Shown: one piece after another, positions 1 to 23,392 of the stretch
How the letters are laid out: every line of letters starts with the position of its first letter
Position numbering within the stretch: the stretch's first letter is position 1
Source of the DNA: a virus
IMG/VR virus record: IMGVR_UViG_3300035698_002519
Location: 1-25,446 of that record
DNA length: 25,446 bases
Reading direction: 5' to 3' (one strand)
Made by a program: the position numbers and the translations under genes
Notes under the pieces: model-generated
What the model was told of the DNA's origin: nothing
What the model saw: the letters and a program-made list of their open reading frames with translations, nothing else
The model's database searches: none

Positions 1-3000
1 CTGGACTTTACGAAGGAACTTACTGTCAAACGTTTCGCCCATCCGCTGAATATCAACTTCTTCTGAAGCTCCACGGTTTATCATAAATTCAGTTTGTGAC
101 ATGACCTTCACAGCTTCGGAATAGTTCGCGACAAAGTGACGAGTTCCATCAACCAGCGTCGCGCCAGCTTCGAGAGTCCCGCCTTCAAGAAATTCACCAT
201 ATGAAAAATATGAAGACATCTGCGTAATCCCGATTTTCGCTTTACCGCCCAGGACGGCCGTCGCAAAGTTCCGGTTAAAGTAGTTCAAGATCTTGTCGCT
301 AACGTTCGCAGCCTGGACACCACCGCCGGCAATACGTTCGCGGATCTGATCCGTGTTTTTCAAAAAGCCTTTACCGAATTTACTATCAACCTTTCGTCGT
401 AGCTTGGCGTCACCAAAGACATCATTCAAAAGCATTGTCTTCTCACGAAACGCTATGAAGTGAGACATTTCGGCTATGTGCCGGTTGAACACTTGAAGAT
501 CCGATCGGCGCGCTAATGGGGCGACCGCCGCAGAGTCGCGAAGCTTGAGCGCAGATCCCGCCGCAAGCTGTTTTCTGAATTCCTGTTCACGCCCGAAGAT
601 GTCAGTCGTTTCTTCATTCAGATCGATGTCCCGCGCGATCGGAGAATAAAAATCACTTTTTGGCAGCGAGATCCCAAACACGCGTTCGTAAACCTCATTG
701 ATCTGTTCATAAAATTCTTCGTAAATATCAAGCTGCGCCTGCGCGAATGCGAAGTCTTCCTTCTCCATGACTCCAAACATATCCCGCAGCATTTCATCTG
801 TATAAGCATTGCCGTTTTCGCTCTGCAGGGTGCTTTCACGAAGGGCTTCTGATTGATATTCCATCCACAGTTTACGAGCTTGCGCCCTGGATATTTCAAT
901 ACGTTCTTTTCCGCCGGCCATGTTTTGATAAACACCCAGATCAACGGGAACGTGACTTTCATCAAGCAGCGTGTTCAAGCCTTTTGCGTCTTTGCCGTAA
1001 GCTTCTTTTGCTGCGCCGATTAGCCGGTCGCTCATTTCGCGTTGAATGCGTTGCTGCGTTTGTATTTCTCCCCCGACTTCAAGGCTTGCAGCTTGTTCGG
1101 CGGGCATAATCCGATCGATGTAATCTTCCCAGGCTTCCACACCCCAAGCAATACTTTCACGCGTAGCTTTGCGAACTCCGCCTTTGCGCTTCTTCGTTAG
1201 AAGATCACCGTCTGGATCAATCGTCGCTTCAATTTGCGCGCGGATATCTTTGGCTTCCTGATGCCGGGTATTCAATCTTTTTTCTGCTTCGTCCAGGCCG
1301 AACGTCCGGATCGCTTCGATGTTGTCAGCAATGCGGCCGAGGAATTGCGGAGAGACAGAACGAGGATTTGCCTTCATGTGAAGGATTGAATTCGCCAGGG
1401 GATCAGGAACGCCAGCTTTCAGGAAGGTCGCCAGCATTTCTTCTGCATCCGATCGCCCGGTTGTCTTGTCCACTTTGCCGGAAATTTTGGCCAGCCCTTG
1501 CAGATATTCAAGACGCTTCTGTGTTGTGGCGTCAAACTTCCCGACGCGCTTGCCGGCTTGTGGCTTACGTTTCAGAGATTTGTTCGATAGTAAATTCTTG
1601 ACCCGGCTCTTTTGTTTGGCCGAAACTTTATCCGTCATGATCCGTTCAATACGTCTTTCAAAATCAGGCGCGGCTTTGCGCAGCTTCGCAGCGCTGTCAA
1701 TGTTTTTGATCGCCTTGATAAACTTCGCACGATCGGCGCTTTCCGGAAGGTTCGCTTCGATGAACGTGATGGCCGCTTCTTGTGCAGCTTTCACATCATT
1801 CTTCGCAGCGCGCACACCGTCCTTGAATGCCTTCTTGAATGACTTCACTTCCTTGACGTTTTCCATGATTTCAGCGTTCGCGATGTCACGTTGTTCGTTG
1901 AATTCCAGGATTGCGTCGCGCTGGTCAAGGGATTGCTGATCGGCGGCCGATACAATACCGACGCCGGACGCTTCCGCTTCCAGGGCTTCCAGCAAATCAG
2001 TGATAGAAATATCCGTCGGATTATTCGGATCAGGTTCAGGGAAGAATCCAGCTTCGATCGCAGCTTCCAGGGCTTCATCCAGGAACAGCGTTCCGTTTTT
2101 ATTGGCCACACCTTTCAGACCAGGGCTTTCTTTTCTGGTCAGGCGTTGCAGTTCACCGCTGAAATCGCCGGCTTGCGCGCCGCCTTCGACAAGATCTTCG
2201 GTTAAAATAGTCGTTTGATTGGGATCGATTTTGCTTCCCAATGAAAGGCCGCCGATGCTCTTAATAAATTCAGCCAGGCTTTGCGGTTTCTTCGGAACGG
2301 CCAGAAAGTTTGTGCCTTCCTGCGCTTCGATTTCCTCGATCGCCTTTTCATTGTGTTCATCGCGCATTTCCTTCAATGCCTCGAAGCTCGCACGGTCAAG
2401 CTGGCTGATATCGATCGGCTTGCCTTGTGCAAATTGTTCCAGGTAAGACAGCGCCTTTTCAGTGGCGGCCGCATCAGCGCCGGTTTTAATCCCAGACGCT
2501 TCAGTTTCAATTTCGCTGGCCACAATGCCTTCTAAAACATCAGATTGCGCCTCAACTTTATCCAGGAAGATTTTCGCCAGTTCAGCAGGGACAGTGCCGT
2601 CAGTTTGCTTTTCAACGCGCTTGGATAAAACATCCATACCGACAGAAGTCGTCCCACCACCAAGAGCGCCAAGGAATGCAGAATAAGCAGCCTCTTGAAG
2701 CGCACCCATCACATCAACTTCACGAATTCCGCTTGATTGTGTGATTGCACTTTCTGAGCCTGATTGAAGAAATTCTTGCACAGCTTCTTCACCCATACGG
2801 AACAAATGCTTTTGAACCCCTTTTGAGTTTTCAGCAATCTTGAAGAAATAATTTACACCCACAAATTCAAGCGCGCCTTCAACATTACCGGCAAGCTGTG
2901 CCATAGCCCCGGCCTTCTCAACACCGACGCCGGCATCGCGCGCTTCGAGATACACAGAAGAGTTTTGCAATTCAGAGAACAGCGCAGCCGACGCGATCGG

Positions 3001-3819
3001 GTTTTTCGTCAAAACAGCAAGGCCGATAGATGCCCCGATCGTAGTGGTAACGCCACCGAAATCATAAAGCACTCGTTCAGCAAGATTGCCTTTATCGCCT
3101 TCAATTTTTTCAGGCTTGGCAAAATGCTTTAATATCAAATCGTCTGCGTTCTTGCGGATTTTCACCACAGATTCCCGTACAGTTTTTTCCTGGGTTGCTA
3201 GTTTTTGGACAGCATTTATGTCGCCCTTTTGAATTGTTTTTTTTGTGTTTTCTCTCACAATGTCTTCAGGCTTTTTGAACAGGAACGCGATCGGGTTGTT
3301 TCTGTCATTAATATCGCGCAGAAGCACACGCGACTCTTCATCAGACAAAGCTTCACCAGACGCCATTTTGCGGCGCAGACCATCAACATCTTCTTCAAAG
3401 CCCTGCTTAATAGCATCAGATATCTTTAGGCGCGCGCCGGCTTCACCAGAGACACCAAGATTGACGGCCGTGGCGGCAGCGCCTTTAAATGGTAAAGCAA
3501 CGACATCAGCCGTTTTTTCAAATAGTTTGTTAAAACCGAAATATTGCGACACGTCAGTTTCAGGTTCATTTTGCATTTGATCAGAGAAAACCAGTTCGTT
3601 TTCTTGCATGCCTGGCGGCGCATCTACGACTTTGTTCTGGCTTTCAAGGTAGTAGCTTTGCGTTTCCTGGGGAGTCTGTACATCTTCGATCGTTTGAAGG
3701 TCACTTTCCCCGAACTGAACAGTTTCGCCCACCTGGACGCCCTCAAATGGCAAAGAGCTATTAAGATCATCCTGTGTAAAGTTGACCGTTTCGCCTAGCG
3801 GAGTGTCTTCGATACCCAT
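1..3819 (-). CDS. giant internal virion (ejection) protein, T7 gp16 position; 3' part beyond window
   Basis: The reading frame opens with ATG at 3819, directly after the TAA of the upstream gene, and stays open to base 1, so at least 1273 residues are present and the C-terminus is missing. Its place after gp14-like and gp15-like genes matches T7 gp16, which is ejected into the host to help form the DNA conduit. The N-terminus is acidic and contains a short imperfect duplication: GETVNFTQDDL and GETVQFGESDL within residues 9-35. Around residues 250-275 there is a hydrophobic Gly/Ala-rich stretch, followed by an amphipathic Ala/Gly region to about residue 390, compatible with membrane insertion. 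The middle (about 430-900) is Lys/Glu/Ala-rich helix. Residues about 1050-1230 (YSPIARDIDL, later ILNYFNRNFATAVLGGKAKI) resemble domains of large polyvalent or ejection proteins. No transglycosylase motif was seen; the hydrolase is in the preceding gene. Ejection role is inferred from position and composition. Confidence 0.8.
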   Translation of the reverse strand, partial: MGIEDTPLGETVNFTQDDLNSSLPFEGVQVGETVQFGESDLQTIEDVQTPQETQSYYLESQNKVVDAPPGMQENELVFSDQMQNEPETDVSQYFGFNKLFEKTADVVALPFKGAAATAVNLGVSGEAGARLKISDAIKQGFEEDVDGLRRKMASGEALSDEESRVLLRDINDRNNPIAFLFKKPEDIVRENTKKTIQKGDINAVQKLATQEKTVRESVVKIRKNADDLILKHFAKPEKIEGDKGNLAERVLYDFGGVTTTIGASIGLAVLTKNPIASAALFSELQNSSVYLEARDAGVGVEKAGAMAQLAGNVEGALEFVGVNYFFKIAENSKGVQKHLFRMGEEAVQEFLQSGSESAITQSSGIREVDVMGALQEAAYSAFLGALGGGTTSVGMDVLSKRVEKQTDGTVPAELAKIFLDKVEAQSDVLEGIVASEIETEASGIKTGADAAATEKALSYLEQFAQGKPIDISQLDRASFEALKEMRDEHNEKAIEEIEAQEGTNFLAVPKKPQSLAEFIKSIGGLSLGSKIDPNQTTILTEDLVEGGAQAGDFSGELQRLTRKESPGLKGVANKNGTLFLDEALEAAIEAGFFPEPDPNNPTDISITDLLEALEAEASGVGIVSAADQQSLDQRDAILEFNEQRDIANAEIMENVKEVKSFKKAFKDGVRAAKNDVKAAQEAAITFIEANLPESADRAKFIKAIKNIDSAAKLRKAAPDFERRIERIMTDKVSAKQKSRVKNLLSNKSLKRKPQAGKRVGKFDATTQKRLEYLQGLAKISGKVDKTTGRSDAEEMLATFLKAGVPDPLANSILHMKANPRSVSPQFLGRIADNIEAIRTFGLDEAEKRLNTRHQEAKDIRAQIEATIDPDGDLLTKKRKGGVRKATRESIAWGVEAWEDYIDRIMPAEQAASLEVGGEIQTQQRIQREMSDRLIGAAKEAYGKDAKGLNTLLDESHVPVDLGVYQNMAGGKERIEISRAQARKLWMEYQSEALRESTLQSENGNAYTDEMLRDMFGVMEKEDFAFAQAQLDIYEEFYEQINEVYERVFGISLPKSDFYSPIARDIDLNEETTDIFGREQEFRKQLAAGSALKLRDSAAVAPLARRSDLQVFNRHIAEMSHFIAFREKTMLLNDVFGDAKLRRKVDSKFGKGFLKNTDQIRERIAGGGVQAANVSDKILNYFNRNFATAVLGGKAKIGITQMSSYFSYGEFLEGGTLEAGATLVDGTRHFVANYSEAVKVMSQTEFMINRGASEEVDIQRMGETFDSKFLRKVQ

Positions 3820-5949
3820 TTATTCGACCCTCGTTCCAGATTTACCGTCTGGATTCATGCGGAATTTAACACCACGGATCAGGCGAATTTCACCTTCAAC
3901 GCTCACAGATGAATCAGCTTTTGGCCGGTCACTATGCGCACCGACAAATATGCGATCGCCGTTTATTGTAAACACCTGGTTAGGGGCTTTATCAAGACTT
4001 GCCGCGCCTGGCACAAGTTCGGCTAACATTTCTTGCGCAACAGCACTGACAATCTTCATGCTTTCCGATTTAATTGCATCCTTGGGCATTCCTTTGTTCG
4101 TCATATCGTCAAGCTGCGCTGATTTCTCGGTATAGCGTCTAAACATTTCATTGCGCACATCAGGTAAATCAGTCGTATCAGCAAACGCCTTGAAGGCAAC
4201 TTCGTCATGCGTGAAGTCAGGGAACCAGAAAGCCTTTCCAATTTTATCACCGGCAGCGGCGAGATCCATCGACAAAGACTTTTGCACGGCTTTAGCTTCA
4301 GATGCAGTGATTTCACCGGTTAAAGCTTGCTTGTTTACACTGACCATCATATCGCCAATGTCGTCAAGCATGTCCTCAGATACGGTAATCCGGCGCTGGC
4401 CATCTTTGCTTGATTTATTGAAAAACGCCTCTTTGCGCGCGTAGATCCCAGCGATCGCATTCGGATCGTATTCGGTTTTTTTAAGGTTCTTCTTCCCCAA
4501 AAGCATACTTTCGGCGGAGTTACTGAAATCTTTGGTGATTAAACCCTTGTGTTCAGCCTCGCGCAAAGCTGCAATCTTTTGTTCAGGAGCAACCGCATCG
4601 TTGTAAATAAGGTTGTTCAACTCGCTTTCGTTGGACTTAATCGTGAAAGCGTCAACCGTGTTGGCAATCTTTATTTCTTCAGCCCGTGCCTTCTCTTTAT
4701 CGGCCAGGCCTTGAGGAATTCTTGCGCGCGCTTTTGAAAGGATCTGTGAGTCAATCAGCGTGGCATTGCGTAAGAACTCAGATCCACCAGTGTCAAGCGT
4801 TTGAACGTAGTCCGTCAGCTTGTTCATGCGGTTATCCCAACCGGCCGCAAATTGCCCGTATTTTTCACCGTCAGCGGCGACCAGGCCGGCATATTTTTCT
4901 TGCCTAAGAACGATCAAAGAATAAGGATCTCCGTTTGCGGCATCAATCATGCCCCATGTGTCTTTGTCGTTTCCATGATTAACCAGGGCATCATATGCCA
5001 CAGCCTGAAATTGAGGTTCAAATTCATCAAGCTTTGGATCGTAATATTTTTCTTTTAGGATCTTAGCAGCGCCTTCAGCCGTAAGATTTTTAACATCCAC
5101 GCCAGGGTTATGTTTCGAATTGATCCCATATTTAGCGATCGCGCCGTCAGGCTCTTGCGCTATTTTAGAGCCGCCCTCAATGTCCATCATAATGAAATCA
5201 GTCAAAGGATCTTTACCGCCTTGCCCATATTCAAGGACGCGGCGCAATGCCGTCGGGTTGTCCTGGTTCTGACGAAAGAGGAAGTCGCGCGCTGCGTTGT
5301 CTGTTCCGTATTCAGCAAGGGTTAGGCTGTCTTGAGGACTAAGGATATCAGTCGAAACTTCTGTTGTGTATTTTCGAATGTTGGCTTGAAGATCTGTAAA
5401 ATCCTTGTATGACGGGCTTGTTTTTAGAGAGAAATTAGCAACCATGTCGTCGATGCCTTTTTCCGCGCCCGTAAATGTATTCTTTACCCGCTGGCCATTC
5501 TCGAAATCCTTTGATCTCTGCAACGTGCTTGTGCGATCGCGATCCGTAAGCTGGCGAAAATGATCAAGATCAAAATTCTTTTCATCACCGGCCAGGCTTA
5601 TTTCCTGTTCGACAAGCGCGGATTGTTCACGATGGAACTGGTCAAAGCTTTCAGAAAAGCCGTTTGGATCTTCTTGGGCTTTGTTGCGACGATCTTCATA
5701 TTCAGGGATAAGATCTCGCTGAAATTGGTTGTATCGGTCTTGCGCTCTGACCTTGCTGTCAGCCGCGCGCTGCGTCTTTAATCCGGTAGCAATAGCACCG
5801 GATGCGCTTGAATTCCGATTATGTTGCCCGGCATCTACTGCGAATTGTTGCGCTTCAACACCGCCACCGGCGGCGGATGCTGCGCTAACCGATTTTGAAC
5901 CGGAGCGATTTAAAAAAACATTGCGTGTAAACTGTGGAATTCTAGCCAT
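3820..5949 (-). CDS. internal virion protein (T7 gp15-like) with GH108-type muramidase domain
   Basis: This 709-residue protein lies between gp14-like and gp16-like genes, as gp15 does in T7. Its ATG overlaps the upstream stop as TAATG. Residues about 250-378 resemble the N-acetylmuramidase fold of glycoside hydrolase family 108. IEGG at 257-260 supplies the probable catalytic Glu (E258). It is followed by DGAIAKYGIN at 268-277, the AAKILKEKYY helix near 294-303, an AYDALVNHG segment at 318-326 and a closing GWDNRMNKL at 370-378. The flanking 250 N-terminal and 330 C-terminal residues are charged helix, as expected for a core or ejection protein. The inferred job is local opening of peptidoglycan during DNA injection, the role T7 gives to a lytic transglycosylase in gp16. 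The virion role rests on synteny and the enzyme on motif recognition. A free endolysin is unlikely because the domain is internal and there is no signal peptide. Confidence 0.8.
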   Translation of the reverse strand: MARIPQFTRNVFLNRSGSKSVSAASAAGGGVEAQQFAVDAGQHNRNSSASGAIATGLKTQRAADSKVRAQDRYNQFQRDLIPEYEDRRNKAQEDPNGFSESFDQFHREQSALVEQEISLAGDEKNFDLDHFRQLTDRDRTSTLQRSKDFENGQRVKNTFTGAEKGIDDMVANFSLKTSPSYKDFTDLQANIRKYTTEVSTDILSPQDSLTLAEYGTDNAARDFLFRQNQDNPTALRRVLEYGQGGKDPLTDFIMMDIEGGSKIAQEPDGAIAKYGINSKHNPGVDVKNLTAEGAAKILKEKYYDPKLDEFEPQFQAVAYDALVNHGNDKDTWGMIDAANGDPYSLIVLRQEKYAGLVAADGEKYGQFAAGWDNRMNKLTDYVQTLDTGGSEFLRNATLIDSQILSKARARIPQGLADKEKARAEEIKIANTVDAFTIKSNESELNNLIYNDAVAPEQKIAALREAEHKGLITKDFSNSAESMLLGKKNLKKTEYDPNAIAGIYARKEAFFNKSSKDGQRRITVSEDMLDDIGDMMVSVNKQALTGEITASEAKAVQKSLSMDLAAAGDKIGKAFWFPDFTHDEVAFKAFADTTDLPDVRNEMFRRYTEKSAQLDDMTNKGMPKDAIKSESMKIVSAVAQEMLAELVPGAASLDKAPNQVFTINGDRIFVGAHSDRPKADSSVSVEGEIRLIRGVKFRMNPDGKSGTRVE

Positions 5950-6437: not shown

Positions 6438-6881
6438 TCAGTCCTCCAAATATTTCGCGAACCGGATGTAATCGCGTTTCTTGTCGTCATAATAGCGTAA
6501 AATACCTTCTTCATGAAAACCTAATCTTTTACACCATTTATGATGATCTTTTGCGTAAGCAAGGTTTGCAGTTTCAAGTCGATGAATAAGCATATCTTTC
6601 ATCATTTTATCAAGCTGGTCTTTCACAACATCCATTAATTCAAGCGCGTCGTTGTCGATATGCTCTGAAACCATTGTCCAGCAGTGTCCCGTATGCTCTG
6701 TGGTTTGCAGAATTCCGCCGACGCACAAGATCCGGCCGTCTTTAACCGCAGTAAAACAAGTTCCATGTTCAGCCATAGGGTTTGACGCCTCGGCTGTTAT
6801 TTTGCCGTAACGCTCAAGATCTTCTTCTCTCTGCGCAAACAAGTCCATGTGGTGCGCGTGGTAAGGGATCAGCTTTATCAT
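6438..6881 (-). CDS. GNAT-fold protein in the T7 gp13 position
   Basis: This 147-residue protein has a pattern typical of phage GNAT-like proteins. A short N-terminal strand and helix are followed by TCFTAVKDGRILCVGGI (41-57), corresponding to the beta-hairpin that precedes the acetyl-CoA site. A helix around 79-98 follows, and then RLETANLAYAKDHHKWCKRLGFHEEG (101-126, shown only in outline), the usual end of the fold where a late helix leads into a GF strand. T7 gp13, also called internal virion protein A, is placed identically and is likewise GNAT-like, so this is probably a virion-assembly protein. I see no clear acetyl-CoA pyrophosphate loop (R/Q-x-x-G-x-G/A), so catalysis is doubtful. 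The ATG overlaps the stop of the nozzle gene by 4 nt, indicating translational coupling. Confidence 0.7.
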   Translation of the reverse strand: MIKLIPYHAHHMDLFAQREEDLERYGKITAEASNPMAEHGTCFTAVKDGRILCVGGILQTTEHTGHCWTMVSEHIDNDALELMDVVKDQLDKMMKDMLIHRLETANLAYAKDHHKWCKRLGFHEEGILRYYDDKKRDYIRFAKYLED

Positions 6882-9400
6882 TCTTCGTTTGTCTCCATTA
6901 GCGGTTGCAAGTACTGAATATTCGAAGGTGTTGGCTTATCATGCAACCAATAAATATATTTTTCATCAGCCCATCCATCAGGCATTTGAACATCAAGCAC
7001 CCCAGAAAACAACTTTGGGGGGCGGCCAGCGACTTCACCGGCGTCGCGATAAGCTGGTTCTTCCATGTTATAGAGCGATGTTCCGAATTCAGTTCCAAGG
7101 GAATCGCGCATACGAACGCCCATTTTCGTTATAGCGCGCGCCTTCGTCATCGCGGAGCCTATTTCAGACCCACCATTCACATCTTCAGTTTTTCCAATAC
7201 CGATATACCCAATACCAACGACAACATAGCCGGCGTCATCTTCCAGGAGAATCGCGCCATCTTCCACAACAGTCCCGCTTTGAACACCACCATCGGCAAG
7301 AATGACAACGGCTTCACCTTCAAGATGATTTAGACCCGCCAGGCCTTTCGCCATGTAATACCAGGCACCCGAAGCCCATGCCGCAGATTCTAGTTCGTAT
7401 TTGACGGTTCCTGTAACTTCAGTCGCAGAATTATGATTGTCAATTTCAATTTGGCCACCGTTAGGGGATTGGATGCGGCGCAGATCCGTTGCCATTTGCG
7501 CCGTAAAGAACGCGCCGTCAGCCGTTACGGTTACAGCATCCCCCACTTCAAGGCCGCCTGTAATGGTCAGGCCAACAGTAGCGCCAGAACGGCCGTCATA
7601 TGTAAGGGCAGAATCGCAATGCACAAGTGTCTTTTGAATGTTCCAAAGAGCAGATTCGAACGCAACTTCATCAGATTCTTGATTGTCACTTCCTGTAAAG
7701 AAGTCCTCAAGGACAGGGGTTTCTTCCAGTTTAGGCGTATACTCAATAGATCTTCGCGTCACGCCGTCAATCGTGCGCGTCGCACATTGCCATAGCTCAT
7801 CATCTTCTTCAGCGTCAGGGATAGAGGCCACAGATTCCCACAAGCCATTTGTTTTATGTAAGTGCCAGGCGACGACTTGCTGCGCAGGATCAAACGTCAG
7901 GCCGGCCAGCTTGCCGTCGTTACGGACAGCCCAGATTATGTTAGGCGTTCCCGCTGTATAGCTAAATTGTTTGAATTTTGATTTCCCAATGTGGTCAGCT
8001 AAAAGGGTTCTATCTGGTGACGTATAACCGTCTTGAAGCGCATTATATTCAAAGCTTCTTACTGTGCGTCCATTTCTCTGAGGGTACAGGATATAAGAAT
8101 CAAGCTTGACCGGCCGAACAGTGGAAACGCCATTGAACGATGTAGGTTTCACAGAAATGTTTGTCGGAGTGATCGCATTATTATCACCGCCACCAGTGAC
8201 GCGGAATTCAGAACCAGACGTCCCAACGGCCATATAGTTTTCAGCCCCAACAATCCAGCGAATTCGGTTTGCCTGGTCAGCGCGCAGTTTGTAAATAATG
8301 GCGTCGCTGTCAAGCGTTCCCGTTGTGAAGTCGTCAAGCTCCCCATCTTCACGGATCTTAGAGAACCACAGGCGCGTCGGAAATGTATCAGAAGCCCCAT
8401 AAATCAAACGGCCGTCAAATAACGTAACAACAGAAGGAAAGGAAAACGCTGTAAACTGCTCGACCGTTCCGGCAGATCCATATGTGTCATTGTCCGTGCT
8501 GTCATATCCTTCAAGCTCGAATGTGTTTGTGCCGACGTTCAAGTTTCTAATTGTGAACGATTTGTTGTTGACCTCAGTCATCCCAAGAACGTCAGCGATC
8601 CAGATAATATCACCGTTTGTGTAGGTATCAGCGCCGACGTAAGTGACCACAGCCGGGTCGGCCTTACTTATCCCGCTTATTGCCTGTGATGCCGCCTTCG
8701 TTGTTCCGAAGGGGCTTGAAATAATATCAAACGCCGCAAACGTCCAGGATGTATGCGAAGACCTGGTGAGTTTTTGAGGCGCAAAATCAGGATGCACCGT
8801 ATACATCGTATTATCTGTTTGCGTGAAATCAAATTCAAAAAGATTGGCTTCAAGGTATGGTGACGCAACCTGGACGATTTCGGCCACAGAGCCGCCAGAG
8901 GTATATGCAGGGTAAGCAGTAGTGTTAATGGCTACTGTGATGTTATCAACGTCCACCACGGACGCGACAGCGACTTCTATGCCATTAAGCTTTGTCATCC
9001 CACCGATGCCGGAAAGATAGATAGGTTCGCCGGCGCTCAATCCATGCCCGACGACCTCGATATTCGCAGCGGCGGCCTGTGATACGTCAGTAATATTAAT
9101 AGGCGTGAATGTGTTCAGGCCATGATCTTTATACATCCGAATGAATTGATCTGTAACTTCAAGCACATAGGATTGCTCAGTTTTATAGATGAACGGCACA
9201 AGGCGCGCGATATTGTTGTCTTTAGTGGTCGCAACGAAAATAGATCCTTCACGAAGGCTTGCTTCGCCCTGCGCTGTCACCTTGTAGTTTTGAAGGTAAT
9301 CAAGAGCCTGATCGTAGAAATCCAAATCAGCCCGGCCGCGAAGCTTGGGACTGACATAACCGTAATTTAATGCTGCAAAATCTGGGGTGACTCTAGCCAT
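6878..9400 (-). CDS. tail nozzle / stabilisation protein (T7 gp12-like) with two FCCH-like repeats
   Basis: The 840-residue product starts directly after the stop of the adaptor gene. The N-terminus (LNYGYVSPKLRGRADLDFYD at 11-30, then LQNYKVTAQGEASLREGSIF) is the hallmark of the large podophage tail nozzle or stabilisation family, which follows the adaptor and closes the tail tip. Two copies of a roughly 75-residue repeat are visible at about 98-172 and 240-314. Both carry a GMT-x-x-N core (GMTKLNG at 134-140, GMTEVNN at 273-279) and end with a Gly-rich turn (YTSGGSV, YGSAGTV). This is the FCCH-like repeat common in such proteins. The middle (about 320-570) is beta-rich, consistent with a propeller. 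The C-terminal third includes another Gly/Val-rich domain. No enzyme motif was found. Confidence is high for a tail-tip structural protein and moderate for strict gp12 equivalence. Confidence 0.82.
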   Translation of the reverse strand: MARVTPDFAALNYGYVSPKLRGRADLDFYDQALDYLQNYKVTAQGEASLREGSIFVATTKDNNIARLVPFIYKTEQSYVLEVTDQFIRMYKDHGLNTFTPINITDVSQAAAANIEVVGHGLSAGEPIYLSGIGGMTKLNGIEVAVASVVDVDNITVAINTTAYPAYTSGGSVAEIVQVASPYLEANLFEFDFTQTDNTMYTVHPDFAPQKLTRSSHTSWTFAAFDIISSPFGTTKAASQAISGISKADPAVVTYVGADTYTNGDIIWIADVLGMTEVNNKSFTIRNLNVGTNTFELEGYDSTDNDTYGSAGTVEQFTAFSFPSVVTLFDGRLIYGASDTFPTRLWFSKIREDGELDDFTTGTLDSDAIIYKLRADQANRIRWIVGAENYMAVGTSGSEFRVTGGGDNNAITPTNISVKPTSFNGVSTVRPVKLDSYILYPQRNGRTVRSFEYNALQDGYTSPDRTLLADHIGKSKFKQFSYTAGTPNIIWAVRNDGKLAGLTFDPAQQVVAWHLHKTNGLWESVASIPDAEEDDELWQCATRTIDGVTRRSIEYTPKLEETPVLEDFFTGSDNQESDEVAFESALWNIQKTLVHCDSALTYDGRSGATVGLTITGGLEVGDAVTVTADGAFFTAQMATDLRRIQSPNGGQIEIDNHNSATEVTGTVKYELESAAWASGAWYYMAKGLAGLNHLEGEAVVILADGGVQSGTVVEDGAILLEDDAGYVVVGIGYIGIGKTEDVNGGSEIGSAMTKARAITKMGVRMRDSLGTEFGTSLYNMEEPAYRDAGEVAGRPPKLFSGVLDVQMPDGWADEKYIYWLHDKPTPSNIQYLQPLMETNEE

Positions 9401-15736: not shown

Positions 15737-16012
15737 TTAAAGCCCCAATAATGTTTTTGATGTTACGTCTTCGCTGTCATTGCTTAAAGGATTGAACGTG
15801 TTCTGGCTTCCAGAGTTTGCAGCGACTTGTTTTTGTTGCTTCTTCTTCTTGGCGCTGGCGGCCTTTGCGGCCTCGTCCACTTGTGGTTCTGAATTTTGAA
15901 TGGTTCGTGGCGCAGGGCTGTCATCACCACCGCCGAACAAACCACCGCTTGCGCCTATAAATGAACTGAAAACGCTTCCTGCAATACTTAAAGTTAGTGG
16001 ATCAATTCCCAT
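15737..16012 (-). CDS. small virion-associated protein A, C-terminal KTLLGL tail
   Basis: The 91-residue product has a hydrophobic Gly/Ser-rich N-terminus (LTLSIAGSVFSSFIGASGGL), a Lys/Gln/Ala-rich middle (AASAKKKKQQKQVAAN) and the C-terminus VTSKTLLGL. The next gene upstream ends almost identically (VTTKTLLGL), so the two look like diverged paralogues. T7 genes 6.7 and 7.3, small head-tail proteins beside the portal, also share a C-terminal signature, so a similar virion role is inferred. AGGA lies upstream of ATG 16012. Confidence 0.7.
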   Translation of the reverse strand: MGIDPLTLSIAGSVFSSFIGASGGLFGGGDDSPAPRTIQNSEPQVDEAAKAASAKKKKQQKQVAANSGSQNTFNPLSNDSEDVTSKTLLGL

Positions 16013-16014
16013 GT

Positions 16015-16227
16015 TTACAATCCTAACAATGTTTTAGTTGTGACTTGCGCTTGCCCAGAACCGCCAAGACCAGCCGGAGAGTTTGCCCCTGCATTTGCGG
16101 CAAGAATGGCCTTGCTTTTCTTTTTATTGGCTTTTGAATCAATAGATGCCTGTGTCTCAGTTGGTGCAGGAGCCGCGACGACTGGCTGCGGTTTAGGCGC
16201 GCCGAACGCTTTCTTTACGAACCCCAT
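16015..16227 (-). CDS. small virion-associated protein B, C-terminal KTLLGL tail
   Basis: The product is 70 residues starting at ATG 16227, chosen over GTG 16233 because AAGGGA is then 8 nt away. It is Ala/Pro-rich (AFGAPKPQPVVAAPAPTET), then Lys-rich (KANKKKSKAILAANAG), and ends VTTKTLLGL, matching the adjacent downstream protein. Its start lies inside the end of the terminase gene by 35 nt, in another frame, so translation is probably coupled. The function is inferred from position beside the portal gene. Confidence 0.68.
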   Translation of the reverse strand: MGFVKKAFGAPKPQPVVAAPAPTETQASIDSKANKKKSKAILAANAGANSPAGLGGSGQAQVTTKTLLGL

Positions 16228-17722
16228 AGCCACTTTCCCTTCTTTTCTGCATTGTTGATGAACCAGATCCAGACCGTTTTCTGGACGGTGCTGTCGTATC
16301 GATTATATCTAAAATCTGGGGATAAGCAAATTGTAGAACAAAATTCGTGCCAAAGTCGGGGCTTGGAAGGTCGCGCGCTTTCAAATCCTTGACCGCCTCA
16401 AGCTGTATCTTCTGATTTGCCGTCATGAAATATTCAATGTTTATTAAATCTTCGCGCAAACGTGGTTCATCAGGTAATTCAAACCCGGCTTCAATAGCGC
16501 GCGCGCCTCTGCACCACATTTCAGCACGGACATTGATGTATTTATCAGGCTCTTGCGCTTTTGAACCTGAATTGACGCCGGTCGTAGGGATGCCCCAGGC
16601 CTTGAGTATGTCAGTTACGCCGCCACCGACACCAATATCATCAATGAAACAGCGAATTTGAATGTGTCCTGGCGTCCTTTGGCGATGGAAACGGTATGTC
16701 TCGGCCATCATCGTCGCCACCTCGACGACGTTTTTGCCGGAATATGACTCTAGTTCATGACATTTAGCGCCCTGGTATGCTCCGATCGTGGATAAATCAT
16801 CACCAAATCGGGCAACATCACAGCAAATTGATATAGGAAACATTTCAAAACCAAGCGCCTTGAACTCAGTCATACAATGATGCACTGCCTCTTCAGCAAT
16901 TAGCTGGTTTGACGCCTGGCGTGGGAATTTACCGAGGATACGAACACGGACAAAATCACTGTCAATGCCATAGTCATCAACCCATTGCTGCAATTTGTTC
17001 TTATTGGTTTTTCGTGCAGTCCTGGCGTCGATCGACCTGGTGATCCAGCGATGCCGGAACTTGCCAAAGCATGCACGGAAGCGGCCGGTGTTACGTGTAG
17101 GATTTCCAAACACAACCCACAGACAGCGCCCGGAGGTCATCGCGCCTTCAGACACGTCATAAATCGCGTCATCGATCGCAGATCCTTCATCGAATTTATA
17201 TAAAACAGCCTCGGCGTGTGTACCAGCAAAGCTTTCCGTCGTGTGCTTTGACCAAGGGATGGCGTTTGACCGCCACGTTTCCGGGCGTTCTTTCAAATAA
17301 AATGCGGTAGCAGTCCATTCAAATAGATGACCATGCACCATAAGTTTGTGCCATTTGGACAACTCGCGCCAGGTCTTCGTCGTAAGCTGGTTTAATGTAT
17401 TGGCCGTTGTGACCACTTGAGGGTCAACGTTTGTGGACATCCACCAAAGATCAATCAAAGCCATCAAAGCCGTCTTACCGATACCGTGACCGGAAGCGCA
17501 AGCTATTTGAACAGGGATGCGTTCTTCTTCAGGAAGGCGTTCGTTTGCCTGGAATGCTTTGCCGATATCGTCAAGAACCGCTAATTGCCATCTATCCGGG
17601 TATTCGCTTTCTAAAACCGTCCCAGGCTCACCCCAAGGAAAAGCCCATAGGACAAAGCCAACAGGGTCATTCTTGAATTTGGCCATAACTTCAGGGAGAT
17701 TAGTCATCGCGGTCGGGGTCAT
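16193..17722 (-). CDS. terL: terminase large subunit (packaging ATPase/nuclease)
   Basis: The product is 509 residues from ATG 17722, selected because AAGGA lies 10 nt upstream; a TTG at 17746 and an ATG at 17707 are weaker. Walker A is SGHGIGKT (77-84). Walker B is AVLYKFDEGSAI (172-183), with D178 and E179. The coupling motif is FGNPTR (205-210). The RNase H-like nuclease residues are probably D302 (CDVARFGDD), D361 or D362 (FIDDIGVGGG) and D456 (SPDFGTNFVLQFAYP). All motifs are intact, so it should pump and cut DNA at the portal. The gene overlaps the TerS candidate by 23 nt and the small KTLLGL gene by 35 nt. The C-terminal 30 residues are basic, as expected for a portal-docking tail. Confidence 0.95.
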   Translation of the reverse strand: MTPTAMTNLPEVMAKFKNDPVGFVLWAFPWGEPGTVLESEYPDRWQLAVLDDIGKAFQANERLPEEERIPVQIACASGHGIGKTALMALIDLWWMSTNVDPQVVTTANTLNQLTTKTWRELSKWHKLMVHGHLFEWTATAFYLKERPETWRSNAIPWSKHTTESFAGTHAEAVLYKFDEGSAIDDAIYDVSEGAMTSGRCLWVVFGNPTRNTGRFRACFGKFRHRWITRSIDARTARKTNKNKLQQWVDDYGIDSDFVRVRILGKFPRQASNQLIAEEAVHHCMTEFKALGFEMFPISICCDVARFGDDLSTIGAYQGAKCHELESYSGKNVVEVATMMAETYRFHRQRTPGHIQIRCFIDDIGVGGGVTDILKAWGIPTTGVNSGSKAQEPDKYINVRAEMWCRGARAIEAGFELPDEPRLREDLINIEYFMTANQKIQLEAVKDLKARDLPSPDFGTNFVLQFAYPQILDIIDTTAPSRKRSGSGSSTMQKRRESGYGVRKESVRRA

Positions 17723-19318: not shown

Positions 19319-20932
19319 CTATGGTGTGAGGTGGTACGTACCGAACTGCAACGTCATCGCAACGGTTGCGTTGTCTTTGATGACTTTGGCATTATCCAAG
19401 CCCCAAAACACGCCCCATCCATAAACTATCTTGACTGATGAACCAGCGTCCGGCGTAGATGCCAACGTTAGGGTCAATCGTGTAGCTGATGATTTTGCAG
19501 AAGATGAAATCGCCACCTCGACGTCATCTTCGAAAGCTTTAAAGAATTCTTTTAGATCCCCGGCAGAAGCGGGGCTTGTGAAATCATTACCGTCGTCGTG
19601 TGTGATGTCGATCGTTACCGTAGCGCCAGAGATAGAGGCAGCCCAGGACATGCCATCAACACCAGCCAAGCTTGCGCCCTCAACGGCTGCAATCTTACGT
19701 GACCCGATTAAAGCCAGTTGTCTATAGCCAACGTCAAGAGGGTGAACAGAGTCCGTCAATCCGTAAGGAAGGCCGAACGTATGGACATTTGGAAGCTGGT
19801 TCGGCATATCAATTTGAACTTCACGGATTGATTGAGCGCCAGCTTTACCGGCTGCGGAAGGTTCTGACGTTTGACGGCCGCCAAGTTGTTGAACAAGAAT
19901 GTTTGCATTGCCCATAACAGCGCGCATTGTCTTGAACACGCGGATCAACGAAGCTTGATACTGTGACTTAGTGGCGAATCCTTCAACATTGACATAGAAA
20001 GAATCCGCTTCGCCCTGCGACCACCAGATCCATCCATTTTTTGTTAGGTCTACGGTGCGCGCATACTCGAAAAAGTCCCATAGTTCCGTTCCCCAGTAAG
20101 CGGGGTCAATGGTCTTGCTTGTGTTCCAGCGATCAGGATCATTTATGTCGTCATGCCAGTGTTCGGTCGATGGTGCAGAGCTTGAGGACGACGCCAACAA
20201 GGACGATCCGCCCTCTGCGCCGTTCCTTGGGTTGACTTGGATGCCATCAATCGCGTCCTCGATCGTGTTGATCATAACCTCGTAGCCACCTTCTTCGCCT
20301 GTTTCTTGGCTGTCAAAGTAGCCCGAACCTAACGACTGGCCGGCTGTAATAAGATCAACAGTCTTAGAACGCTTCATGCGAACAGCTAATTCGGACGGCG
20401 CAAGGTATTTATTGCCGACCTCATAGGCCTGAATTGTCCCGACAAGTGTATCTGATCCGCTATTGCGAGAGCCTAGATACAAATGCGTAAAGCCTGAAAT
20501 TCCTGTGATATCATAATTAGCTTCAAGGACTTCGCCCTTATAGATTATATAAGCAGCGTCACCCTTCCAGGCGAGGCCGATCGTGGTCTTCTCACCTTCA
20601 GCAATCAAATGATCAATCATGTCAGTCGTCGCAATGTTGCCGGAGTCCTGGCGAACGCGATATCCTGGGAAGCCAGCGCTTTGAAATAAGCGAACGCCTA
20701 CAGATGGATTTGATGAATTCTTGTTCAACTCGATAACGTACTGATCTTTGGAAGCGTTTGGGATGTCCGTCGGCGTGAACTCTGCCCACATAAAGCCTTC
20801 AGCCGCATTAGCGTCAACATATGGCACGTTTGTTACATCAACAAACGTGCCAATAACCGGATTCAGAACAACGCCGCTTGTGATAAGGGCGTTGTCTTCG
20901 TTTCCTAAAAGATCAAGTGCGAGATTTGACAT
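19319..20932 (-). CDS. tailspike: LamG-like domain plus SGNH/SASA esterase
   Basis: The 537-residue protein has three parts. Residues about 25-185 look like a LamG/ConA-like lectin sandwich: TTIGLAWKGDAAYIIYKGEV at 116-135, then FTHLYLGSRNSGSDTLVGTI at 148-167, the usual closing pattern. Residues 190-415 match the SASA/CE6 branch of SGNH hydrolases: block I is ITAGQS (195-200) with nucleophile S200, WSQGEADS (304-311) is the signature block, and DSVHPLDVGY (394-403) supplies the D394/H397 pair. The rest is a beta-rich C-terminal domain. The enzyme should remove acetyl groups from surface sugars, as expected of a receptor-binding tail protein. There is no signal peptide, and its place in the late operon fits a virion protein. 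The target sugar cannot be told. Confidence 0.82.
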   Translation of the reverse strand: MSNLALDLLGNEDNALITSGVVLNPVIGTFVDVTNVPYVDANAAEGFMWAEFTPTDIPNASKDQYVIELNKNSSNPSVGVRLFQSAGFPGYRVRQDSGNIATTDMIDHLIAEGEKTTIGLAWKGDAAYIIYKGEVLEANYDITGISGFTHLYLGSRNSGSDTLVGTIQAYEVGNKYLAPSELAVRMKRSKTVDLITAGQSLGSGYFDSQETGEEGGYEVMINTIEDAIDGIQVNPRNGAEGGSSLLASSSSSAPSTEHWHDDINDPDRWNTSKTIDPAYWGTELWDFFEYARTVDLTKNGWIWWSQGEADSFYVNVEGFATKSQYQASLIRVFKTMRAVMGNANILVQQLGGRQTSEPSAAGKAGAQSIREVQIDMPNQLPNVHTFGLPYGLTDSVHPLDVGYRQLALIGSRKIAAVEGASLAGVDGMSWAASISGATVTIDITHDDGNDFTSPASAGDLKEFFKAFEDDVEVAISSSAKSSATRLTLTLASTPDAGSSVKIVYGWGVFWGLDNAKVIKDNATVAMTLQFGTYHLTP

Positions 20933-21296: not shown

Positions 21297-21752
21297 TCAC
21301 CCTACCACAGCCGTCGGAGATTTGACAACCCGCACCGAAATGCCGTGACATGCAAGCATCAGTTTCGCCTTGAGTTTGAAGATTGCTGTGCTTACGCCTT
21401 TGAAATCTTCGACGATCGTCTTGCTTTCCGCCGGTGCACGGCCTCTTGGTTGCCCTTTACCAAACAACGGAACGCCGATCGTTTCTGATTTTGTTCCGAT
21501 AATGTACGTGAAATCAGCGATATATCGACAGATATGAACACCATCGATGTCGAAGCTGAATGATACCTGACAACGAAGATTCCTGATGATTCCCTGGTCT
21601 TGCTGGTATTTCAGGAAGATATATCGATCGCGTTCGCCGATGCTGTCAAACTTCTTGCCCATGTATTCGACGCGCTTGTTCCCATACTTCGATTTGCGCG
21701 GCTTTCCGGTGATATTTTTATAATCGCTTTGTCTTGGGATGAATACGCTCAT
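21297..21752 (-). CDS. DUF1064-family protein, PD-(D/E)xK nuclease-like
   Basis: The 151-residue product shows the DUF1064 pattern: SKYGNKRVEYMGKKFDSIGE (21-40) with E40, a helix RDRYIFLKYQ, the strand CQVSFSFDID, YIADFTYI (78-85) with D80, and TIVEDFKG (112-119) with a D-x-K pair at 116-118. E40, D80 and D116-x-K118 are spaced like the active site of PD-(D/E)xK nucleases. There is an insertion after YI (GTKSETIGVPLFGKGQPRGR, 86-105) that replaces the short turn usual in the family. A recombination or junction-processing role fits the replication block but is not shown. The site is AGGAGG, inside the upstream tiny ORF. Confidence 0.8.
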   Translation of the reverse strand: MSVFIPRQSDYKNITGKPRKSKYGNKRVEYMGKKFDSIGERDRYIFLKYQQDQGIIRNLRCQVSFSFDIDGVHICRYIADFTYIIGTKSETIGVPLFGKGQPRGRAPAESKTIVEDFKGVSTAIFKLKAKLMLACHGISVRVVKSPTAVVG

Positions 21753-22180: not shown

Positions 22181-22680
22181 GTGATCCTCTGAATGCTGTT
22201 GTGTGTTATTTGTTTTATCTCTTCGTCTTCAATCACAAATGCTTCCCTCTGCCCTCTTTCCTGAATGTTGAACGCTTCGATTGTGTCGTGTGCGTGTGTA
22301 TAGACATCGAAGCGATTATTTGCTTTTTGCCACTCTTTCGCAGCGATGAATTCTGTTTGTGTGATCTTAGGTTTTATTGGTTCTAGTATTGCAATCAAAC
22401 AGGATGGCGTCGGAAAGTCTTTGTTTTTATCTGTGTATTTATCCAGGGCATAAAGGATCTGTTCAATGGTGAAGCGCCCAGCGAATTTTCTTTCCCATCC
22501 TTGCATAGTCAGTTTTGGATCATATTTCTGGCCGAATTTCTTCTGCATTGCCATCATCGGAAAAGTAACCACGGACAGCATCTTTTTTTCTTCTATCGTC
22601 CATTCATTCACCGACCCAATCTTTGAAGCCGTCGCGCATTCTATCGATTTCATCTGTTCCGGTTCGTCCTTCGTGGTCAT
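22177..22680 (-). CDS. putative replicative helicase loader / DNA replication protein
   Basis: The 167-residue product begins inside the DUF1376 gene (77-nt overlap) at ATG 22680. GGAAGG stands 8 nt upstream, which decides the start. Residues 36-60 include a hydrophobic helix and QKKFGQKYD. WERKFAGRFTIEQILYALDK (63-82), YTDKNKDFPTPSCLIAILEP (83-102), then ITQTEFIAAKEWQKANNRFD (107-126) follow the layout of small phage loader proteins: a W-x-x-x-F/L helix, then a FPTP-x-x-L-I-x-I helix. Position behind an initiator-type DUF1376 protein mirrors lambda O then P. The loader role is inference from pattern and synteny; no ATPase motif is present, as is normal for P-type loaders. Confidence 0.6.
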   Translation of the reverse strand: MTTKDEPEQMKSIECATASKIGSVNEWTIEEKKMLSVVTFPMMAMQKKFGQKYDPKLTMQGWERKFAGRFTIEQILYALDKYTDKNKDFPTPSCLIAILEPIKPKITQTEFIAAKEWQKANNRFDVYTHAHDTIEAFNIQERGQREAFVIEDEEIKQITHNSIQRIT

Positions 22681-23392
22681 TGTATTTGCCTTCCATCAGT
22701 TTTATGAAGCTGGATTCACGTATGAGAAAATCGAAGTCAGCTTTCCACCCTCGATCGTTGTTGCCTTTGCAGAAGCTAGAGGCTTCCAGGAGCAGAAGGG
22801 CAGCTTTCCAGCCAGCTATTCCGTCACAGTCCTTCAAACGAGCCGTCAGGTGCTTCTTTCGCGTCGCAGATAGCTTTTGAACGGGCGATATGCCCATGAT
22901 CTTTGCTGCAACGTTGTATAAACTGACCGCATCTTTCAAAATTTGAGCTTCCGCCCCTTCTTCTTTCTTACTTGTCTCTGTCTCTGTCTCTGTCTCTGTC
23001 TCTGTGGCATTCCCACGCATAGCATCCGCATGCGCGCCGCATTTAACGTCTTGTTTTGGCTTGTTTTTACTCCACCGAACTTTTGCCGCTTTTTGCGCGC
23101 TTTCGCTTCGCCTGGTGCTTCTTTTGTCCTGAACATCAAGCTGTTTGTCACAGAAATCATGAAAAAGCATACCGTCCGCATGCGTGAAGAATGCGCGGAC
23201 TATGCGCGCCGCACCTAACCAGTTGTTTTCATTGACGCCTGCTATCCGTGCAAGTACATAGTCGTCGTCTGGAAGCGGCTCACGTGTGGCCATGTATTCG
23301 TCAATCAATCGGCGATAAATTCCGTCCTGTTCTGCGGTCAGATGCCGCGTTGCTTTCCTAAACTTCTTATAGTCCCAGGGATACCAGTCCAT
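22604..23392 (-). CDS. DUF1376 (YdaU-like) phage replication protein
   Basis: The 262-residue product has a diagnostic N-terminus: MDWYPWDYKKFRKATRHLTA (1-20), EQDGIYRRLIDEYMATREPL (21-40), and DDDYVLARIAGV. This winged-helix-like DUF1376 domain is common in replication modules of temperate phages. A basic linker (KAAKVRWSKNKPK, about 100-112) leads to a Thr/Glu repeat (five ET units, about 130-139) and then a C-terminal domain (LYNVAAKIMGISPVQKLSAT, KADFDFLIRESSFIKLMEGK), which is the usual second half of such proteins. It should bind the origin and recruit helicase through its overlapping neighbour. The AAGGA site overlaps the upstream RHH stop. Confidence 0.85.
   Translation of the reverse strand: MDWYPWDYKKFRKATRHLTAEQDGIYRRLIDEYMATREPLPDDDYVLARIAGVNENNWLGAARIVRAFFTHADGMLFHDFCDKQLDVQDKRSTRRSESAQKAAKVRWSKNKPKQDVKCGAHADAMRGNATETETETETETSKKEEGAEAQILKDAVSLYNVAAKIMGISPVQKLSATRKKHLTARLKDCDGIAGWKAALLLLEASSFCKGNNDRGWKADFDFLIRESSFIKLMEGKYNDHEGRTGTDEIDRMRDGFKDWVGE
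22975..23004 (-). repeat. 5 x 6-bp tandem repeat (TCTCTG on plus strand)
   Basis: Five perfect copies of the hexamer encode alternating Glu and Thr in the linker of the DUF1376 protein. As the unit is 6 bp, copy-number change alters linker length but not the frame. Confidence 0.95.

Follow-up and report, generated by a model that had tools for sequence, protein, structure and literature searches.

A GH108-type muramidase-like domain in the gp15-position protein of an epsilon15-type ejection cassette

Which enzyme would open the cell wall for the DNA of this virus, and which protein carries it? The window, that is, the whole stretch of 25,446 nt that we have analyzed (IMG/VR record IMGVR_UViG_3300035698_002519), contains a gene whose predicted protein appears to combine a place among the ejection proteins with a muramidase-like domain. 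We have asked whether this domain really belongs to the GH108 family, whether its carrier is an ejection protein, and whether it acts at the beginning or at the end of infection. The features discussed are listed in Table 1.

Table 1. Position of the ejection genes and of the GH108 features in the window.
Feature	Position	Strand	Evidence
gp15-position ejection protein, GH108 carrier, 709 aa	3820..5949	(-)	Open frame; gene order; L003/L004 relatives
GH108 muramidase-like domain, residues 245-385	4795..5217	(-)	Pfam PF05838; AlphaFold2 domain model; structural matches
Closing GW-x-x-R motif, residues 370-374	4828..4842	(-)	W371 nearly invariant, R374 invariant
KYGIN segment, residues 273-277	5119..5133	(-)	Motif; G275, I276 conserved
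Ala272 codon, at the triad Thr place of stand-alone GH108 enzymes	5134..5136	(-)	Alignment; triad PMC6996933
E258 codon, predicted catalytic glutamate	5176..5178	(-)	Invariant in 25 domains; aligned with N4 gp61 E26
gp14-type internal virion protein, 161 aa	5949..6434	(-)	phrog_418 E 8e-14; epsilon15 gp14 matches same family
gp13-position protein, acetyltransferase-like by synteny	6438..6881	(-)	phrog_4177 E 4e-19, phrog_308 E 6e-13
Giant gp16-position protein, C-terminus cut by window end	1..3819	(-)	Open frame 1273 aa

The initial annotation had placed a GH108-type muramidase domain in the middle of the ORF 3820-5949 (-), at positions 4810-5200, which correspond to about residues 250-380. 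This proposal has held up. The Pfam profile Glyco_hydro_108 (PF05838) matches residues 255-326 with an E-value of 1.5e-7 and 32.3 bits, while its curated cut-off is 21.2 bits. The proteins of the relatives L003, L004 and L001 also exceed this cut-off. PHROG 315 is matched with an E-value of 1e-13, residues 253-435 of our protein being aligned with positions 341-540 of the 677 in the profile; since the match falls in the middle of the profile, the enzyme of this family is also central in a long protein. A PDB search with the single domain sequence found nothing, but profile searches did match: A profile made only from embedded domains, those found in long phage proteins, finds 2is5, 2ikb, 6v3z, 7dnp and 6v40 with E-values from 4e-15 to 3e-10. 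The motifs that had been described are all present. IEGG begins at residue 257, so that its glutamate is E258; the KYGIN segment is found where it was expected, and the closing GW-x-x-R appears as GWDNR. As far as sequence comparison can tell, the GH108 domain in the 709-aa protein is confirmed, far beyond chance.

Structure prediction, which had been suggested as a check, gives the same answer. The AlphaFold2 model of the full-length protein has a mean pLDDT of 72.6, with a block of 82-96 over residues 241-400, and in VIA-align it is matched best by NMB1012 (2ikb, Z 9.9, rmsd 4.2, 131 aligned residues). A Foldseek search with this model found mostly T4-lysozyme fusion proteins and was set aside; the domain was then folded alone, with a pLDDT of 88.8 and a pTM of 0.83. 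The top VIA match of the domain model is 7dnp (Z 10.6, rmsd 3.4, 141 aligned residues), followed by 2ikb (Z 9.4), 2is5 (9.3) and 2nr7 (9.1). These four are all solved GH108-type proteins. Behind them, at Z 8-9, come R21-type endolysins, GH46 chitosanases and other lysozyme folds. As VIA rows that differ by 1 Z or less count as tied, GH108 is set apart only modestly by the fold, and clearly by the sequence profiles. Foldseek gives a weak match with the domain model (E 0.02 for TtsA). An absent GH108 fold or an absent E258 would have spoken against the proposal; the predicted fold matches GH108 and E258 is present.

An alignment-based scan gave 26 loci with this domain. In most of them the carrier has about 660-1165 aa (2277 in one case), with the glutamate usually found 29-44% along its length; a few loci are short frames that stand alone, or are truncated by the end of the contig. 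Scanning the viral sequences again, now with the domain alignment as query, gave no contigs beyond the earlier ones, a scan of genomes added one new contig, from a Micavibrio MAG, and the plasmid collection that we searched gave no match. To judge from these sequences, the GH108 domain in the gp15 slot appears to be spread over many uncultured podoviruses, which is new here. The motif residues are conserved in homologues that come from independent contigs. The conservation alignment contains 25 domain sequences, two of them from stand-alone enzymes (N4 gp61 and another one), and its invariant positions include E258, G259, G275 and R374. When the window protein is compared with its two close relatives, identity is 81-82% in the domain and 59-66% in the flanks, and dN is 0.13-0.14 in the domain against 0.27-0.39 in the flanks, with dS saturated. 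The domain thus appears to be under stronger constraint than the flanks, as the most constrained part of the protein.

The carrier has a helical N-terminal part, the GH108 domain in the middle and a longer C-terminal part. Relatives over its full length are found in two IMG/VR contigs, L003 (67% identity) and L004 (65%), and a third contig has 40% identity across residues 1-489. Its gene is preceded by a gp14-type gene and followed by a larger one in the gp16 position, an order common to the window, epsilon15 and T7. The tail tubular A and B genes are found on the same side as the gp13-position and gp14-type genes, with the giant gene on the other side. Epsilon15 gp13, which is annotated as an acetyltransferase, matches both phrog_4177 and phrog_308, and full-length relatives of the gp16-position protein have 1500 and 1526 aa. 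Several other loci with the GH108 domain present the same neighbourhood, the gene just upstream coding either for a phrog_418-type gp14 or for a "DNA ejection" protein of phrog_598. Gene order and neighbours therefore agree with the gp15-position carrier that had been proposed. Sequence and profile comparisons of the flanks of the window protein with T7 gp15 and epsilon15 gp15 found no direct match; there is an indirect chain to a known gp15, from the window to L011 (the first 386 window residues, E 3e-23), from L011 to L013 (and also L015, both over about 600 residues) and from L013 to phiV10. The gp15 assignment, which we infer from gene position and this chain of relatives, makes the 709-aa protein a gp15-position ejection protein which is probably packaged and injected into the bacterium.

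Several other features of these regions may be mentioned. The tail tubular B-type protein (6878-9400, (-)) has a match to Pfam E1_FCCH in two stretches (E 4.5e-15) and a weak match to an endosialidase beta-barrel, i.e., small beta-barrel inserts. The gp16-position proteins of L008 (10033-14592) and L010 (9231-15980) contain the "large polyvalent protein" domains LPD38, LPD22 and LPD23, and a zinc-peptidase-like AHEVGH motif may be seen by eye in that of L008. Between terminase and portal lie two small neighbouring ORFs, 15737-16012 and 16015-16233 (-), which have no Pfam match and share a near-identical tail, TSKTLLGL and TTKTLLGL. A 537-aa protein (19319-20932, (-)), also without Pfam match, has by eye an N-terminus resembling laminin-G and, after it, a part that resembles SGNH/acetylesterases (GQSLGSG, WWSQGEAD); it is perhaps a tail-associated esterase. 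The ORFs 21297-21752 and 22604-23392 (-) code for DUF1064 and DUF1376 proteins, types which are frequent in phages.

The 709-aa protein could also be read as a lytic endolysin acting at the end of infection, as the label of phrog_315 says. In fact, the stand-alone GH108 enzyme of phage N4 is an endolysin (PMC12642591). The genomic context leads us to reject this reading, which we consider very improbable. An endolysin gene would be expected in a lysis cassette together with a holin, while this gene lies inside the ejection cassette, between the gp14-type and gp16-position genes. The lysis region of the virus itself lies outside the window; in the closest relative, L003, an M15_4 peptidase and a GTA_holin_3TM are found downstream of the ejection cassette and form a predicted lysis cassette. 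A further GH108 frame, a short one, is present in the phages of L013 and L017. Finally, neither an SLT nor any other muralytic Pfam domain was found in the gp16-position proteins of the window (partial), L003, L004, L008, L010 and L013. All these observations argue against an endolysin, and the separate peptidase and holin of L003 make an entry enzyme the most likely role of the 709-aa protein. Those members of PHROG 315 that the analysis covered are long proteins of ejection cassettes, with GH108 in their middle, and the endolysin label of the family is probably misleading.

The initial annotation had compared the locus with T7, where the wall-cutting domain is also part of an ejection protein: An SLT domain is found at the N-terminus of T7 gp16 (residues 15-127, E 1.7e-31) and none in T7 gp15. 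It is correct that both the enzyme family and the carrier differ, but T7 is not the closest system, as epsilon15 and K1E already have an enzyme in the gp15 position. Epsilon15 is a better comparison because it has the same gene order and a transglycosylase-like domain in the same slot. In epsilon15 and phiV10 (Uetakevirus) the order is tail tubular A and B, gp13, gp14, gp15. Epsilon15 gp15, annotated as a putative lytic transglycosylase, has a transglycosylase-type match at residues 242-363 of its 842 aa, so the slot is the same and the enzyme family is another one. In K1E and K1-5 the wall-cutting domain is also on the gp15-type protein, gp35, rather than on gp16; unlike in the window, it is a Phage_lysozyme GH24 domain (PF00959) near the C-terminus (776-910 of 982). 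A 2022 review reports lysozyme activity for these proteins and concludes that the T7 gp16 hydrolase can swap to the gp15 homologue (PMC8954989). The N-acetylmuramidase gp61 of N4 belongs to the same domain family as ours, its catalytic E26 corresponding to E258, but it is a free SAR endolysin (PMC12642591). Two Manatee Spring podoviruses, MW202722 and MW202485, also have a mid-protein GH108 domain, in proteins of 729 and 821 aa, before a giant gene; their records just say "lysozyme" and give no ejection role. GH108 is absent from a review of virion-associated lysins, which names T7 gp16 and SP6 gp36 (PMC5380687), and our searches of the open-access literature turned up no ejection protein described as a carrier of GH108.

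The comparison of L013, which carries GH108, with phiV10 gp15 suggests how the enzyme may have reached this slot. Their C-terminal halves align (residues 407-837 with 407-827, E 6e-65; E 2.5e-49 by profile comparison). Profile comparison shows no relationship between the middle domains and no significant match between the N-terminal parts. The identical residue number of the boundary in both proteins would fit an in-place swap of enzyme modules; as the N-terminal parts do not align, this boundary would mark the exchanged piece on the C-terminal side. In a tree based on 124 alignment columns, a branch with 100/99 support sets 24 of the 25 embedded rows apart from the other rows; the exception is L099, a 523-aa frame which groups with the stand-alone enzymes. 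The GH108 domains of virion genes would then form one clade, which is new here, but this may partly reflect sampling: The embedded rows came to light largely through motifs characteristic of the group, and most stand-alone rows are from a single bacterial class. Most GH108 frames in 289 genomes of that class have 130-390 aa, and few exceed 500.

The active site presents a different picture. The structure of TtsA has a lysozyme-like triad of Glu14, Asp19 and Thr28 (PMC6996933). The position of the Thr, directly before the K/N-x-G-I motif, is occupied by Thr in all 50 stand-alone rows (partly identical, about 35 are distinct) and in only 10 of the 25 embedded rows, the others having Ala (9), Val (4) or Ser (2). 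The window has Ala272, so it lacks a residue that is typical of the stand-alone enzymes, though not part of the definition of the family. For the Asp of TtsA the window domain has no clear counterpart; by its spacing D268, in a loop AQEPDG that the window shares with L003, L004, L009 and L010, is a candidate. Judged by the aligned sequences, the active site of the window domain is not canonical, and the frequent loss of the triad Thr in embedded domains is a new and unexpected split. With Thr replaced and no clear Asp, the activity of the domain is not assured. It might have kept the lysozyme fold and be catalytically weak or dead, serving the ejection conduit as a structural element or by binding peptidoglycan. 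The missing Thr in 15 of the 25 embedded domains, our own among them, points in this direction, but E258 is invariant in the part of the protein that is most constrained, a single catalytic Glu can suffice for activity in lysozyme-like enzymes (PMC5674055), and no other wall-cutting domain was recognised in the gp16-position proteins. We consider a weak or inactive module unlikely.

As a whole, the locus is best explained, with good probability, by a gp15-position ejection protein of a short-tailed phage, in an epsilon15-type gene order, whose GH108 domain would cut the cell wall at entry. Starting from the domain, its predicted fold, the conserved glutamate and the gene order, the following steps may be proposed. 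The 709-aa protein would be packaged in the capsid and, at infection, ejected into the periplasm, where it would take part in forming the conduit for the DNA. Using E258 as general acid, the GH108 domain would cut glycan strands locally, and this would allow the conduit to cross the cell wall. It would thus do the job of the SLT domain of T7 gp16. On a more tentative level, and with somewhat less than even chances in our opinion, the GH108 domains of ejection proteins could be one specialised subfamily, captured by the ejection proteins of podoviruses and exchanged in place with transglycosylase-type domains where the scaffolds are related; its altered active site would depend on Glu and work without the canonical Thr.

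In summary, the novelty is moderate: A known arrangement has another enzyme family in its slot, together with a split in one active-site residue. This split between embedded and stand-alone GH108 domains is open to direct test. Database labels which name such proteins endolysins may be corrected, and the published view of ejection proteins as modular gains support from comparing L013 with phiV10. The set of enzymes for passage through the wall would become wider: SLT on gp16 in T7, GH24 on the gp15 analogue in K1E, a transglycosylase-like domain on gp15 in epsilon15, and now GH108 on the gp15-position protein.
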